DNA from: Candidatus Stygibacter australis
GTDB lineage: Bacteria; Cloacimonadota; Cloacimonadia; Cloacimonadales; TCS61
Assembly (NCBI GenBank): GCA_030765845.1
Contig: JAVCDJ010000273.1
Span: 1-33,839, forward strand
Length of the DNA stretch: 33,839 bases
Reading direction: 5' to 3'
Made by a program: the position numbers and the translations under genes. Shown in pieces: positions 23,829 to 26,479 of the stretch; the stretch's first letter is position 1, and each line of letters begins with the position of its first letter. Below the pieces are notes generated by a model that did not search any database, had not been told where the DNA came from, and was given only the letters and a program-made list of their open reading frames with translations.

Positions 23829-25340
23829 ATGAAGAGAAAAATTGTTATTCTAATTATTGGATTGGTGATGCTTGCTGTTATTCAGGCAGATTTGAATGAG
23901 CAGGCGATAGAGAACATCTTTGCAGATGAGCTTCTTAACACTCAGGATATATATCAGCAGATCATGATGTTTAATGATTATCAGGATATGAGTAATAAAG
24001 GAATTGTGATGGAGGATAGTCTGGCAGATGGTTCTCCATGGTTTTATTATATTCCAGAGAGTTATGACCTTCATCAACGTCATGGATTGATCATCTGGCT
24101 GCATGGGGGAGTGGGGCGAGAAGATTATTTTGAGCCTGATGAATATTGGTTTGACCACCCGATCATAGACTATGCAAAGGAAGCAGATATGCTGGTTCTG
24201 ATGCCCATGGCCAGAGGTGATTGCATGTGGTGGGAATCTGCTGGTGAGAAGCATGTAATAGATGAGCTGCTGATCATGAAAGAGAGATATAATATTGATG
24301 ATGATAGAGTATTTATGACGGGATTTTCTGATGGAGGATCAGGTTCTTTTCATTTTGGCTATCGGCTGCCAAATGAATTTGCTGCGTTTTATCCGCTTAA
24401 TGGTATGATCTCAGTTCCGGCCCATGTTACGGGCAAACCCTGTTTTATCAAAAATCTTCAGAACCGGTATTTGAGAGCTGTTAATACAGATCAAGATGGG
24501 CTTTATCCTGCTGCAAGTACGCGATTGACAATGAATCTGGCACTTAGCGCCGGGGCGGATATCAGCTACCGTGAATACTGGGGACTCGGTCATGACTGGG
24601 GATATTCTGATGAGGATTTGCCATTGATAATGAAAGATATTCAGAAACGCGCCAGGGATAGTTTTCAATCTGAGATATATTGGGAATGCTTGAGTACTAA
24701 GGAATATAACCACTGCGACTGGCTGGAGGTCACTGAACTTGATACTTTGGCAGAGAAGCAGGACTGGCAGCAAGAATACAACGTCCAGCTTCCAGATGAC
24801 AGGATCAGTTTTGGATTTTATCATGATTCAGAATTCAAAGGTGACGGGATCATGGTTAATAAAGTAATAGAATCCTCCCTGGCAAAAGAGATGGGATTAA
24901 AAGATAAGGATATCATAATTGCTATGGACGAAGTGACGATCACTAATATTGATGAAATGGAAGAGCTGAAGGCTGAAAAGCAGCGCGGAGATGAAGTTAG
25001 TTTGACGGTTTACAGGGAAGGGGATACTCACTTATTAAAAGGTGTTTTTCCCGAGATCGCTTACTATGATGCTTTCTTTTATGATCAGCCTTCTGGAGCA
25101 GCAAAAGCAAAATATTATGGGAATATATTTGAAATAGAAACCTCCAGAGTAGGGGCTTTGGCAATATATATAAATCCCGAAATGGTGAACCTGAAAATAC
25201 CCGTAAAAGTTATCATAAATGATATAGAAGTTTTTAATGAGAAAGTTGATTATGAAAGCCAGATTATGAAGGAGAACATTATTAAAAATAGAGACCGCAA
25301 AGCTATCTGGGTTAATAAACTGAAATTTGAAATTGAATAG
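23829..25340 (+). CDS. Secreted esterase with C-terminal PDZ domain
   Basis: This is a 503-residue protein with an N-terminal signal (MKRK, hydrophobic 5-19). The alpha/beta hydrolase core has the oxyanion region LIIWLHGGVG (87-96) and the nucleophile elbow GFSDG (165-169, Ser167); a likely His255 lies in GLGHDWGY and an acidic residue near NTDQDG (219-224), so the triad looks complete. Relatives resemble PHB depolymerase or ferulic acid esterase-type secreted esterases. Residues about 325-410 form a PDZ domain (MVNKVIESSLAKEMGLKD, then IIIAMDEVTI), which usually binds peptide ends. A roughly 90-residue C-terminal beta region follows. An esterase fused to PDZ is uncommon. The substrate is unknown. 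Confidence 0.8.
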   Translation: MKRKIVILIIGLVMLAVIQADLNEQAIENIFADELLNTQDIYQQIMMFNDYQDMSNKGIVMEDSLADGSPWFYYIPESYDLHQRHGLIIWLHGGVGREDYFEPDEYWFDHPIIDYAKEADMLVLMPMARGDCMWWESAGEKHVIDELLIMKERYNIDDDRVFMTGFSDGGSGSFHFGYRLPNEFAAFYPLNGMISVPAHVTGKPCFIKNLQNRYLRAVNTDQDGLYPAASTRLTMNLALSAGADISYREYWGLGHDWGYSDEDLPLIMKDIQKRARDSFQSEIYWECLSTKEYNHCDWLEVTELDTLAEKQDWQQEYNVQLPDDRISFGFYHDSEFKGDGIMVNKVIESSLAKEMGLKDKDIIIAMDEVTITNIDEMEELKAEKQRGDEVSLTVYREGDTHLLKGVFPEIAYYDAFFYDQPSGAAKAKYYGNIFEIETSRVGALAIYINPEMVNLKIPVKVIINDIEVFNEKVDYESQIMKENIIKNRDRKAIWVNKLKFEIE

Positions 25341-25505
25341 AAGAGGGTTTAACCACGGAACACACGGAAGGAATGTAAGAGAAAAAGGGATTTATATTTG
25401 GATTGGTGGTTATCTGGATTATTCTAGGTTTAACTTGTTTTTGGGGGGGGGTAAATGATAAAGGTTGTGTTTTTTCCTGTGTGTTCAAAGTGTTCCGTGG
25501 TTAAA
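25335..25505. repeat. Inverted-repeat element, copy 1
   Basis: TTTAACCACGGAACAC (25348-25363) and GTGTTCCGTGGTTAAA (25490-25505) are 16-bp perfect inverted arms; inner ends AACACACGG (25359-25367) and CCTGTGTGTT (25476-25485) extend the pairing with one mismatch. The element begins at the stop codon of the esterase gene (TAGAAGAGG) and ends just before the next ribosome site. A related copy lies at 25914-26086. It also contains a run of nine G (25443-25451). Confidence 0.7.
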
Positions 25506-25523
25506 AAAAGAAACAAGTAGGAA

Positions 25524-25916
25524 ATGATTGAGGTTAAAATGAAAGATCTGATATTTGAGGATGAAAGTTATAAGATAAGAGGTGCAATATTTAAAGTATA
25601 TACGGATATGGGTTGTGGTTTTTTGGAAGCAGTTTATCAGGAATGCTTGCAGAAGGAATTTGAATTGAGTCAAATTCCATTTGTTGCAGAGCATAAAGTG
25701 AGTTTGACGTATAAAGGTCATCAGCTTAAGCAAGTATATTATCCCGATTTTATATGTTATGAAAAGATTGTCGTTGAACTGAAAGCAGTGAAGGCTCTTG
25801 AAGATATTCATTTAGCACAGGTAATTAATTATTTAAAAGCTACAGGACTGAACCTTGGGTTCTTAGTGAATTTCAATCACTATCCCAAAGTTGATATCAA
25901 GAGAATAGTATTGTAG
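25524..25916 (+). CDS. GxxExxY family protein (PD-(D/E)xK nuclease-like)
   Basis: This 130-residue protein carries the diagnostic GFLEAVY (Gly32, Glu35, Tyr38) and, further on, YPDFICYEKIVVELKAVKAL with Asp75, Glu85 and Lys87, which fits a PD-(D/E)xK nuclease core. GxxExxY proteins are common, often multi-copy, and their biological role is not established. ATG at 25524 or 25539 can start it. It lies alone between two related inverted-repeat elements, a setting that suggests a mobile or recombination-linked cassette, though no transposase is present. It is not obviously co-regulated with its neighbours. Confidence 0.85.
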   Translation: MIEVKMKDLIFEDESYKIRGAIFKVYTDMGCGFLEAVYQECLQKEFELSQIPFVAEHKVSLTYKGHQLKQVYYPDFICYEKIVVELKAVKALEDIHLAQVINYLKATGLNLGFLVNFNHYPKVDIKRIVL

Positions 25917-26086
25917 AAGAGGATTTGACCACGGAATACACGGAACACACTGAAGAACGCGAGAAAAAAGAGATTTTGTCAATTAAAGGTTTTGTTTTGG
26001 AGATTTTACTGTTAAATTTTATTTTAGAGAAATTGATTACATAAAAGTTGTATTTTTTCCGTGTATTCTGAGTATTCCGTGGTTAA
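25914..26086. repeat. Inverted-repeat element, copy 2
   Basis: CCACGGAATAC (25929-25939) and GTATTCCGTGG (26072-26082) are perfect inverted arms. It begins in the GxxExxY stop (TAGAAGAGG, 25914-25922), the same way as copy 1, and interior pieces (GAGAAAAA, AAAGTTGTATTTTTTCC against AAGGTTGTGTTTTTTCC in copy 1) also match. The two are about 170-base direct copies with inverted ends. Confidence 0.7.
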
Positions 26087-26107
26087 ATAATAAAATAAGG
26101 AGAAAAG

Positions 26108-26479
26108 ATGTTTGATTTACAGAAACTACATGATCATGTTGGAAAGGGATTGAAGATATCAATGGTATTTGGTGATCCGATTGAAGCTCAGGGAAAGACT
26201 ATTATTCCTGTGAGTAAAGTAACTGGTGGATTTGGTGGGGGAGAAGGAATCGCCCCTGGTAGCAGTTGCGGAGATGATAAGGAAGAAGGGGATACTGATA
26301 ATGCTGCTCATGGTATGGGTGGTGGCGGTGGATTGCATAATGAGGCAATTGGTGTATTTGAGATAACTCCTGATAGTACCCGGTTTATACCAGCAGTCCA
26401 ATTTAAACACATCCTGGTCATGCTGGGCATGATCATGGGATTTATCTGGAGAATGAGCAAGAGAAGAAGGCGTAAATAG
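26108..26479 (+). CDS. GerW/YtfJ-family protein
   Basis: This 123-residue protein matches the Spore_YtfJ (GerW) family: HVGKGLKISMVFGDPIEAQGKTIIPVSKVTGGFGGGEG at the start, a glycine-rich middle (GGGGGLHNEAIGVFEITPDS) and a single C-terminal membrane helix (about 98-116) with a basic RKRRRK-like tail after it. In Bacillus the homologue is needed for normal spore germination, but the family is widespread in non-spore-formers and its molecular role is unknown. No other sporulation genes are here. AAGGAG precedes the ATG. The C-terminal helix and basic tail suggest membrane anchoring. Confidence 0.85.
   Translation: MFDLQKLHDHVGKGLKISMVFGDPIEAQGKTIIPVSKVTGGFGGGEGIAPGSSCGDDKEEGDTDNAAHGMGGGGGLHNEAIGVFEITPDSTRFIPAVQFKHILVMLGMIMGFIWRMSKRRRRK

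Follow-up and report, generated by a model that had tools for sequence, protein, structure and literature searches.

The GxxExxY gene at positions 25524-25916 of the window, the whole 33,839-nucleotide stretch of Candidatus Stygibacter australis DNA that was analyzed, belongs to a recurrent arrangement in which one small gene lies between two mutually inverted arms. This arm-gene-arm pattern is real and general and, as far as sequence comparison can tell, finds its best explanation in a selfish element that resembles a REPtron and is based on a Cas4-like nuclease. We consider it probable, with moderate confidence, that gene and arms together constitute a minimal selfish mobile element whose nuclease would recognize its own arms, much as in a REPtron, although the two enzymes are unrelated.

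In the window, the GxxExxY gene (+ strand, 130 aa) lies between two host genes of the same strand, a PDZ-domain protein gene upstream (23829-25340), which is also the neighbor at this junction in genomes G001 and G002, and a gene of the Spore_YtfJ family downstream (26108-26479), which adjoins the PDZ gene directly in G001. Two inverted-repeat elements, E1 (25348-25505) and E2 (25923-26088), also read on the + strand, bracket the gene, as the preliminary description had proposed, and both are preceded by TAGAAGAGG, which starts at a stop codon: the two copies, at 25338-25346 and 25914-25922, begin with and include the stop codons of the PDZ gene and the GxxExxY gene, respectively. The left arm of E1 (25348-25369) holds two CACGGAA units spaced 9 nt, and its right arm (25472-25505) is the inverse of the left, with the outer 16 nt perfect (TTTAACCACGGAACAC at 25348-25363 against GTGTTCCGTGGTTAAA at 25490-25505, 16/16 complementary). 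The left arm of E2 (25923-25957, three CACGGAA/CACTGAA units) and its right arm (26054-26088) are 83% complementary over 35 nt. As had been proposed, the two elements are related (alignment score of 136.5, compared to 37.5 for the best of 500 shuffles), but their interiors taken alone are only weakly alike, the observed score being reached by 33 of 500 shuffles, so that most of the resemblance comes from arms and ends. A lack of similarity beyond the arms, named in advance as evidence against a common unit, is close to true for these interiors. Folding of both elements as single-stranded DNA was better than that of shuffled sequences (z -2.5 for E1 and z -4.7 for E2). Each of E1 and E2 is an arm pair that is complete but has no gene of its own and lies next to GxxExxY; similar pairs are seen around loci L018, L048 and L062. 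As had been noted, no transposase adjoins the GxxExxY gene, which is itself the sole annotated gene between the arms, in the place that the transposase occupies between the terminal inverted repeats of a classical insertion sequence. Gene and repeats do behave as an inserted unit, although this unit is not the gene plus one element, as had been suggested, but arm-gene-arm, ~460 bp in length.

The encoded protein matches TIGR04256 (E=2.5e-41, 140.7 bits vs a cut-off of 35) and PF13366 (PDDEXK_3; E=1.7e-41, 141.7 bits vs a cut-off of 22). The residues that do not vary among 25 sequences are G30, G32, E35, Y38, Y63, D75, E85, K87, Q99, N116, F117 and R127, and the PD-(D/E)XK catalytic pattern is intact in 109/109 genes. 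The window protein carries E35, D75, E85xK87 and Q99xxxY103, and D-ExK together with QxxxY is the pattern of RecB/Cas4-like nucleases. Its predicted structure (pLDDT 93.8) found its best PDB match in 4ic1 (SSO0001), a Cas4, with a Foldseek probability of 1.0, E=6e-4 and a VIA Z of 9.9; lambda exonuclease was next by Foldseek and Hjc stood further down the list. All other entries listed by VIA-align 2 were below Z 8 and may reflect only a common fold. Most solved structures near this fold belong to exonucleases or to nucleases of repair and restriction rather than to transposases, a point against the mobile-element reading, and a sequence search of the PDB gave nothing significant. The nuclease core attributed to the protein beforehand is thus borne out by the intact PD-(D/E)XK residues and a predicted fold like that of Cas4 and lambda exonuclease, and by its D...ExK residues and modeled restriction-endonuclease-like fold the protein is a member of the PD-(D/E)XK nuclease superfamily, with putative nuclease activity. 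The gene is under purifying selection, with a median dN/dS of 0.11 over the 12 pairs with dS above 0 (13 were computed, one of them without synonymous change); this value and the intact catalytic pattern suggest that the protein is kept active. The candidate defence model PDC-M36A gave only a weak partial match (E=2.3e-5, residues 73-129). No described function for GxxExxY was found in the literature searched, outside which most subscription journals lay, and among the matches listed there was neither a paper linking GxxExxY to repeats, papers on REP/RAYT, casposons and rRNA intervening sequences included, nor, for the arm sequences, anything on bacterial repeats.

The genome from which the window comes (G000) holds five GxxExxY matches, one of them truncated (contig C144). 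Each of the four full-length genes lies amid periodic repeats of different sequence, and the truncated fifth also has such repeats; the units, CACGGAACA in the window, CACAGAAGG on C175, ATCAACGAAAACACG on C224, CGCGAACAAACCGAAC on C21 and GTGGACGTTGTGGACG on C144, are alike in style and not in sequence. With up to 2 mismatches allowed, ACCACGGAANACACGGAA has 12 matches in G000, compared to 2 for the reversed control, and 9 of the 12 are on contigs without a GxxExxY match. The elements thus lie, literally, mostly away from GxxExxY genes, a distribution which had been held to speak against a link between the two; when the count is made from the genes instead, the association with arms is strong, both in the phylum (86/104) and in other named bacteria (60/76). 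Many gene-less copies away from the gene are also what might be seen, by analogy, with miniature non-autonomous elements whose spread depends on a small number of autonomous copies. Gene-less arm copies elsewhere in G000 often form mosaic arrays with AATGTAATGTAAGA in between: the intergenic arrays at L010, L013, L014 and L015 mix several arm types, with AATGTAATGTAAGA as separators and tracts like GAGTCGTGAGTCGTGAG. At L003 (C224, locus positions 1280-1520), a tandem duplication upstream of the gene includes a left arm and also an apparent remnant of the gene's 5' end.

Across the window's phylum, TIGR04256 matches were found in 82/124 genomes, with as many as 16 in one genome. From 99 loci (9 from the window's genus, 30 from the profile search and 60 fetched from places listed there) we obtained 113 distinct genes, 104 of them with usable flanks (9 were dropped, 5 as short and 4 as fragments); the sample leans to high-scoring members because it was drawn from the best-scoring places listed. 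Against the 86 of these 104 genes with mutually inverted flanking arms stand 23/232 control genes, 10/104 when the downstream flank was complemented without reversal, and 13.4% among 4000 mismatched pairs. These figures are from the anchored version of the statistic, in which the upstream flank is not cut at the HMM boundary. An earlier version, since replaced, cut it there, lost the arms lying inside the stop-to-stop frame, applied a harsher mismatch penalty and gave 44/103 at a score of 30. The control genes are not wholly free of such elements, since their top scorers include L130 and L133; by eye, L130 encodes a four-helix-bundle-like protein, and gene _-_8104 of L133, with inverted flanks, resembles a REP-associated Y1 transposase (RAYT) with its own repeat.

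A scan of GTDB genomes, in which 80 of 543 confirmed loci were kept and 76 could be analyzed (2 were short and 2 had no recognized ORF), extended the pattern beyond the phylum: the 60 armed loci of the 76 compare with a null of 11.8% and with 9/76 for complement-only flanks. Armed loci occur in Desulfamplus, Nitrosomonas and Methylomonas and in MAGs or genomes titled Planctomycetes, Verrucomicrobia, Acidobacteria, Chloroflexi, Bacteroidetes, Cyanobacteria and Spirochaetia. Below the arm-score threshold fell 18/104 phylum genes and 16/76 genes of other bacteria, some of them (L041, L042 and L043) with one arm only. The arms consist of about three units of 8-10 nt each (CACGGAACA, CACAGAGGA, CGCAAAGGA and others), inverted between the two sides, and lag analysis gave a unit period of 9 nt, mostly 8-10. 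The family is near-absent from plasmids (8/72,556 records); no member was found in 50,697 phage records, no relative in IMG/VR and no match in PHROGs. A GxxExxY protein is listed for a virus of the alga Chrysochromulina parva in Table 1 of PMC12085832.

The placement of the genes is equally regular. Among those with both neighbors known, 88/92 are co-directional with both, compared to 163/223 control triples. Read from the sequence, the preceding gene often has its stop codon directly next to or within the left arm (TAACCAC, TAGCCAC), which also often holds a GGAG ahead of the GxxExxY gene, and this layout, with the co-directional placement, would fit an element living on read-through transcription. 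Arms that hug the gene and often hold its ribosome-binding site could also serve a resident gene in an ordinary way, as operator, as terminator or in mRNA stability, and nothing would then be mobile. We give this explanation next to no credence, given the gene-less pairs elsewhere, the similar units at several junctions and the differences in presence and absence between relatives.

Arm sequence and protein sequence covary. Arm similarity rises with protein identity in the phylum (rho 0.25, 0/500 permutations), also after removal of 63 flank-similar pairs (rho 0.23, 0/500), and it does so within single genomes when only pairs below 70% identity are considered (rho 0.34, 60 pairs, 3/1000) and in other bacteria (rho 0.25, 0/500). 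These correlations are modest in size, yet they are as would be expected if the protein recognizes the arms. Furthermore, units of ~450-470 bp that are 72-93% alike recur at different operon junctions, and the similarity between them stops at the arms: the units of L047 and L060 are 84% alike over 459 bp, and three copies in G011 are 88-93% alike. A tree contains a CACAGAG-armed clade and a CGCAAAG-armed clade (UFBoot 100 for the latter), each present at several purine-operon junctions, and both are found at purE/purD and at purD/purN (gene names assigned by eye from translations), which indicates that arm type follows the clade and not the site. The purine operon looks like a hotspot, with GxxExxY units of two clades at purE/purD, purD/purN, purH/purC and purN/guaA (L047, L050, L052, L057, L060, L038, L040, L094, L095 and L097).

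A different order of events would put the repeats first. PD-(D/E)XK homing endonucleases are small proteins whose genes spread selfishly, and GxxExxY, a small PD-(D/E)XK protein whose gene likewise seems to spread selfishly, could be a homing-endonuclease gene that cuts gene-less arm pairs, themselves independent intergenic repeats, and that recombination then copies in between their arms. A general search pattern for one arm type gave 3676 matches in 121 genomes, compared to 343 for the reversed control, and, consistent with homing, gene-less pairs outnumber genes, at about 10.7 pattern matches per gene. Gene-bearing and gene-less copies also have a common stretch by the left arm (AATGTAAGAGAAGAAG, on both sides of the gene in L019), and the weaker fold matches of the protein include the homing nuclease I-Bth0305I. 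However, arm type tracks the protein clade even inside one genome, for which homing would need a constant matching of gene to target; no intron or intein was seen, and GxxExxY, unlike homing endonucleases, carries its own covarying arms. Some relatives of an occupied junction lack any repeat, which suggests that a complete unit can insert where no arms were present before. Taking these points together, we regard homing into pre-existing repeats as unlikely.

The bare sites come from a comparison of junctions. At the histidine-kinase/regulator junction of L072 (gene names by eye), G025, G013, G016 and G012 have no insert, G010 has 219 bp of gene-less element debris, and only G011 has the GxxExxY gene, a pattern most simply read, on these alignments, as a derived insertion. 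G010 also has an arm pair of the GAACAAAACGAAC type, without a gene, that G011 lacks. The window junction itself is less one-sided: in G001, of the same genus, 46 bp lie between the host genes, with no GxxExxY gene and no complete element (flanks 81-89% identical), and in G002 the order is left arm, gene, complete element. Since YtfJ identity to G000 is 95% for G001 and 82% for G002, the gene is present in G000 and the more distant G002 and absent from the closer G001, and loss in G001 is at least as likely as gain. No target-site duplication was obvious by eye in the few junctions compared, at 69-94% identity, and no excision or integration product was seen.

If whole units move, another enzyme might move them in trans, with GxxExxY as cargo; REP-associated Y1 transposases (RAYTs) or an insertion sequence would be the candidates. 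Members of the Y1 family are indeed present in 95/121 genomes of the phylum, and arms tend to be denser where these genes are denser (rho 0.33). Once the densities of GxxExxY and PF05635 were controlled for, however, the Y1 correlation was gone (0.02, p=0.80), while that of GxxExxY persisted in the same analysis (0.27, p=0.003), and four genomes (G084, G095, G097 and G100) have GxxExxY and many arms but no detected Y1 gene. Gene-less arms are also denser where GxxExxY occurs, the median excess of the arm pattern being 7.8/Mb in the 79 genomes with the gene and 1.5/Mb in the 42 without (p=4e-5). Exceptions were found on both sides, 10/42 genomes without a detected gene being arm-rich all the same and 8/79 with the gene nearly arm-free, where the pattern used covers only some arm types, and the p-values of the density correlations are rough because the genomes are related. 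Nor would a cargo role explain the covariation of arm and protein, and mobilization in trans appears quite improbable.

The repeats might instead act at the level of RNA, with the arms pairing in the operon mRNA and RNase III excising the element, as in 23S rRNA intervening sequences. The layout is that of the Coxiella intervening sequence, which PMC4990558 describes as a selfish element of 428 nt, with one S23/IVP ORF (PF05635) inside a transcript, excised by RNase III. Both are units of ~430-460 bp with one small ORF inside a host transcript, and genes of the intervening-sequence family PF05635 are themselves flanked here by arms of this kind. The family occurs in 99/121 genomes of the phylum, in up to 30 copies per genome, and inverted arms were found at 23/29 loci of this four-helix-bundle IVP family (L228-L257, 1/30 dropped), compared to 6/29 for complement-only flanks, with a period of 7-8 nt and units such as GTGTTAG, GTCAGCNG and AGTGATT. 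Against excision as RNA, mismatches between left and right arms show no G-U preference (157 vs 165 of the A-C type, p=0.70, 4193 aligned positions), which favors recognition at the DNA level, and the arms are direct repeats of one unit, which a stem would not need; no sign of RNA-stem selection in the GxxExxY arms was seen, and Rfam had no match anywhere in the window. In contrast to the rRNA elements, the GxxExxY sites are protein-gene junctions, the window copy included, and the protein is nuclease-like. We think an RNA-level element very unlikely. That two unrelated proteins each have their own repeat period supports the notion of a protein reading its arms.

Under the explanation we favor, a selfish element served by its own nuclease, the arms, as arrays of about three 8-10 nt units inverted on the two sides, would be bound by a Cas4/lambda-exonuclease-like nuclease specific for its own arm type, which would cut or resect the DNA there. 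The element would then be copied or moved, perhaps by host repair, which is a guess, into the gaps of operons, between genes of one direction, where it would be expressed by read-through transcription, often with a ribosome-binding GGAG inside the left arm, and where insertion would cost little host function. Arm pairs that have lost the gene, for example E1 and E2, would persist and multiply as miniature non-autonomous copies. These copies resemble MITEs in being short, inverted-ended and intergenic, but no transposase with matching ends was found, and the matching gene-bearing partner carries GxxExxY.

A close parallel is with REPtrons and REPINs, in which, according to PMC3116915 and PMC8266576, a single small gene lies by cognate inverted repeats, many gene-less doublets are found between genes, and the repeats co-evolve with the enzyme. 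The GxxExxY gene likewise has flanking cognate inverted repeats and many gene-less copies. It differs in that GxxExxY is a PD-(D/E)XK protein and RAYT a HUH protein, in that its arms are arrays of 8-10 nt direct units where REP is one hairpin, and in that RAYT abundance does not explain the abundance of arms here. PF13366 was the only domain found in the window protein, with no HUH/Y1 domain of the REP/RAYT kind, so the element may work like a REPtron, yet it is not one. The protein resembles Cas4, lambda exonuclease and RecB-like nucleases in predicted fold and in its D-ExK-QxxxY residues, but it has about 120 residues, and, with no cysteine among the invariant columns, nothing points to an iron-sulphur cluster of the Cas4 type. 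Among the GxxExxY neighbors looked at there were no cas genes.

The GxxExxY family is widespread, and periodic repeats of the CACAGAG, CACGAATTA or CGCAAAG kind are scattered between the genes of many bacteria. A link between them would account for family and repeats alike in a way that can be tested, namely through binding and cutting of cognate arms, and, if true, would add a type of mobile element with a minimal Cas4-like nuclease as its sole gene, which would bear on the origin of such nucleases. Annotation would also be helped, because GxxExxY genes break into conserved operons (purine, two-component) of which they are not part. A broader proposition, tentative and rather doubtful, is that this would be a categorically new kind of mobile element, in which one ~120-residue Cas4/lambda-exonuclease-like nuclease reading its own array of 8-10 nt units would suffice to carry arm-gene-arm units and gene-less miniatures into operon junctions across many bacterial phyla, with no need for a transposase, an integrase or a reverse transcriptase, and that the unrelated four-helix-bundle IVP family would have arrived independently at a similar element whose code is 7-8 nt long. 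Copies of the gene can also be numerous within one genome: G040 (L073 and L074) has ten GxxExxY matches, many of them clustered near-identical tandem copies and fragments.
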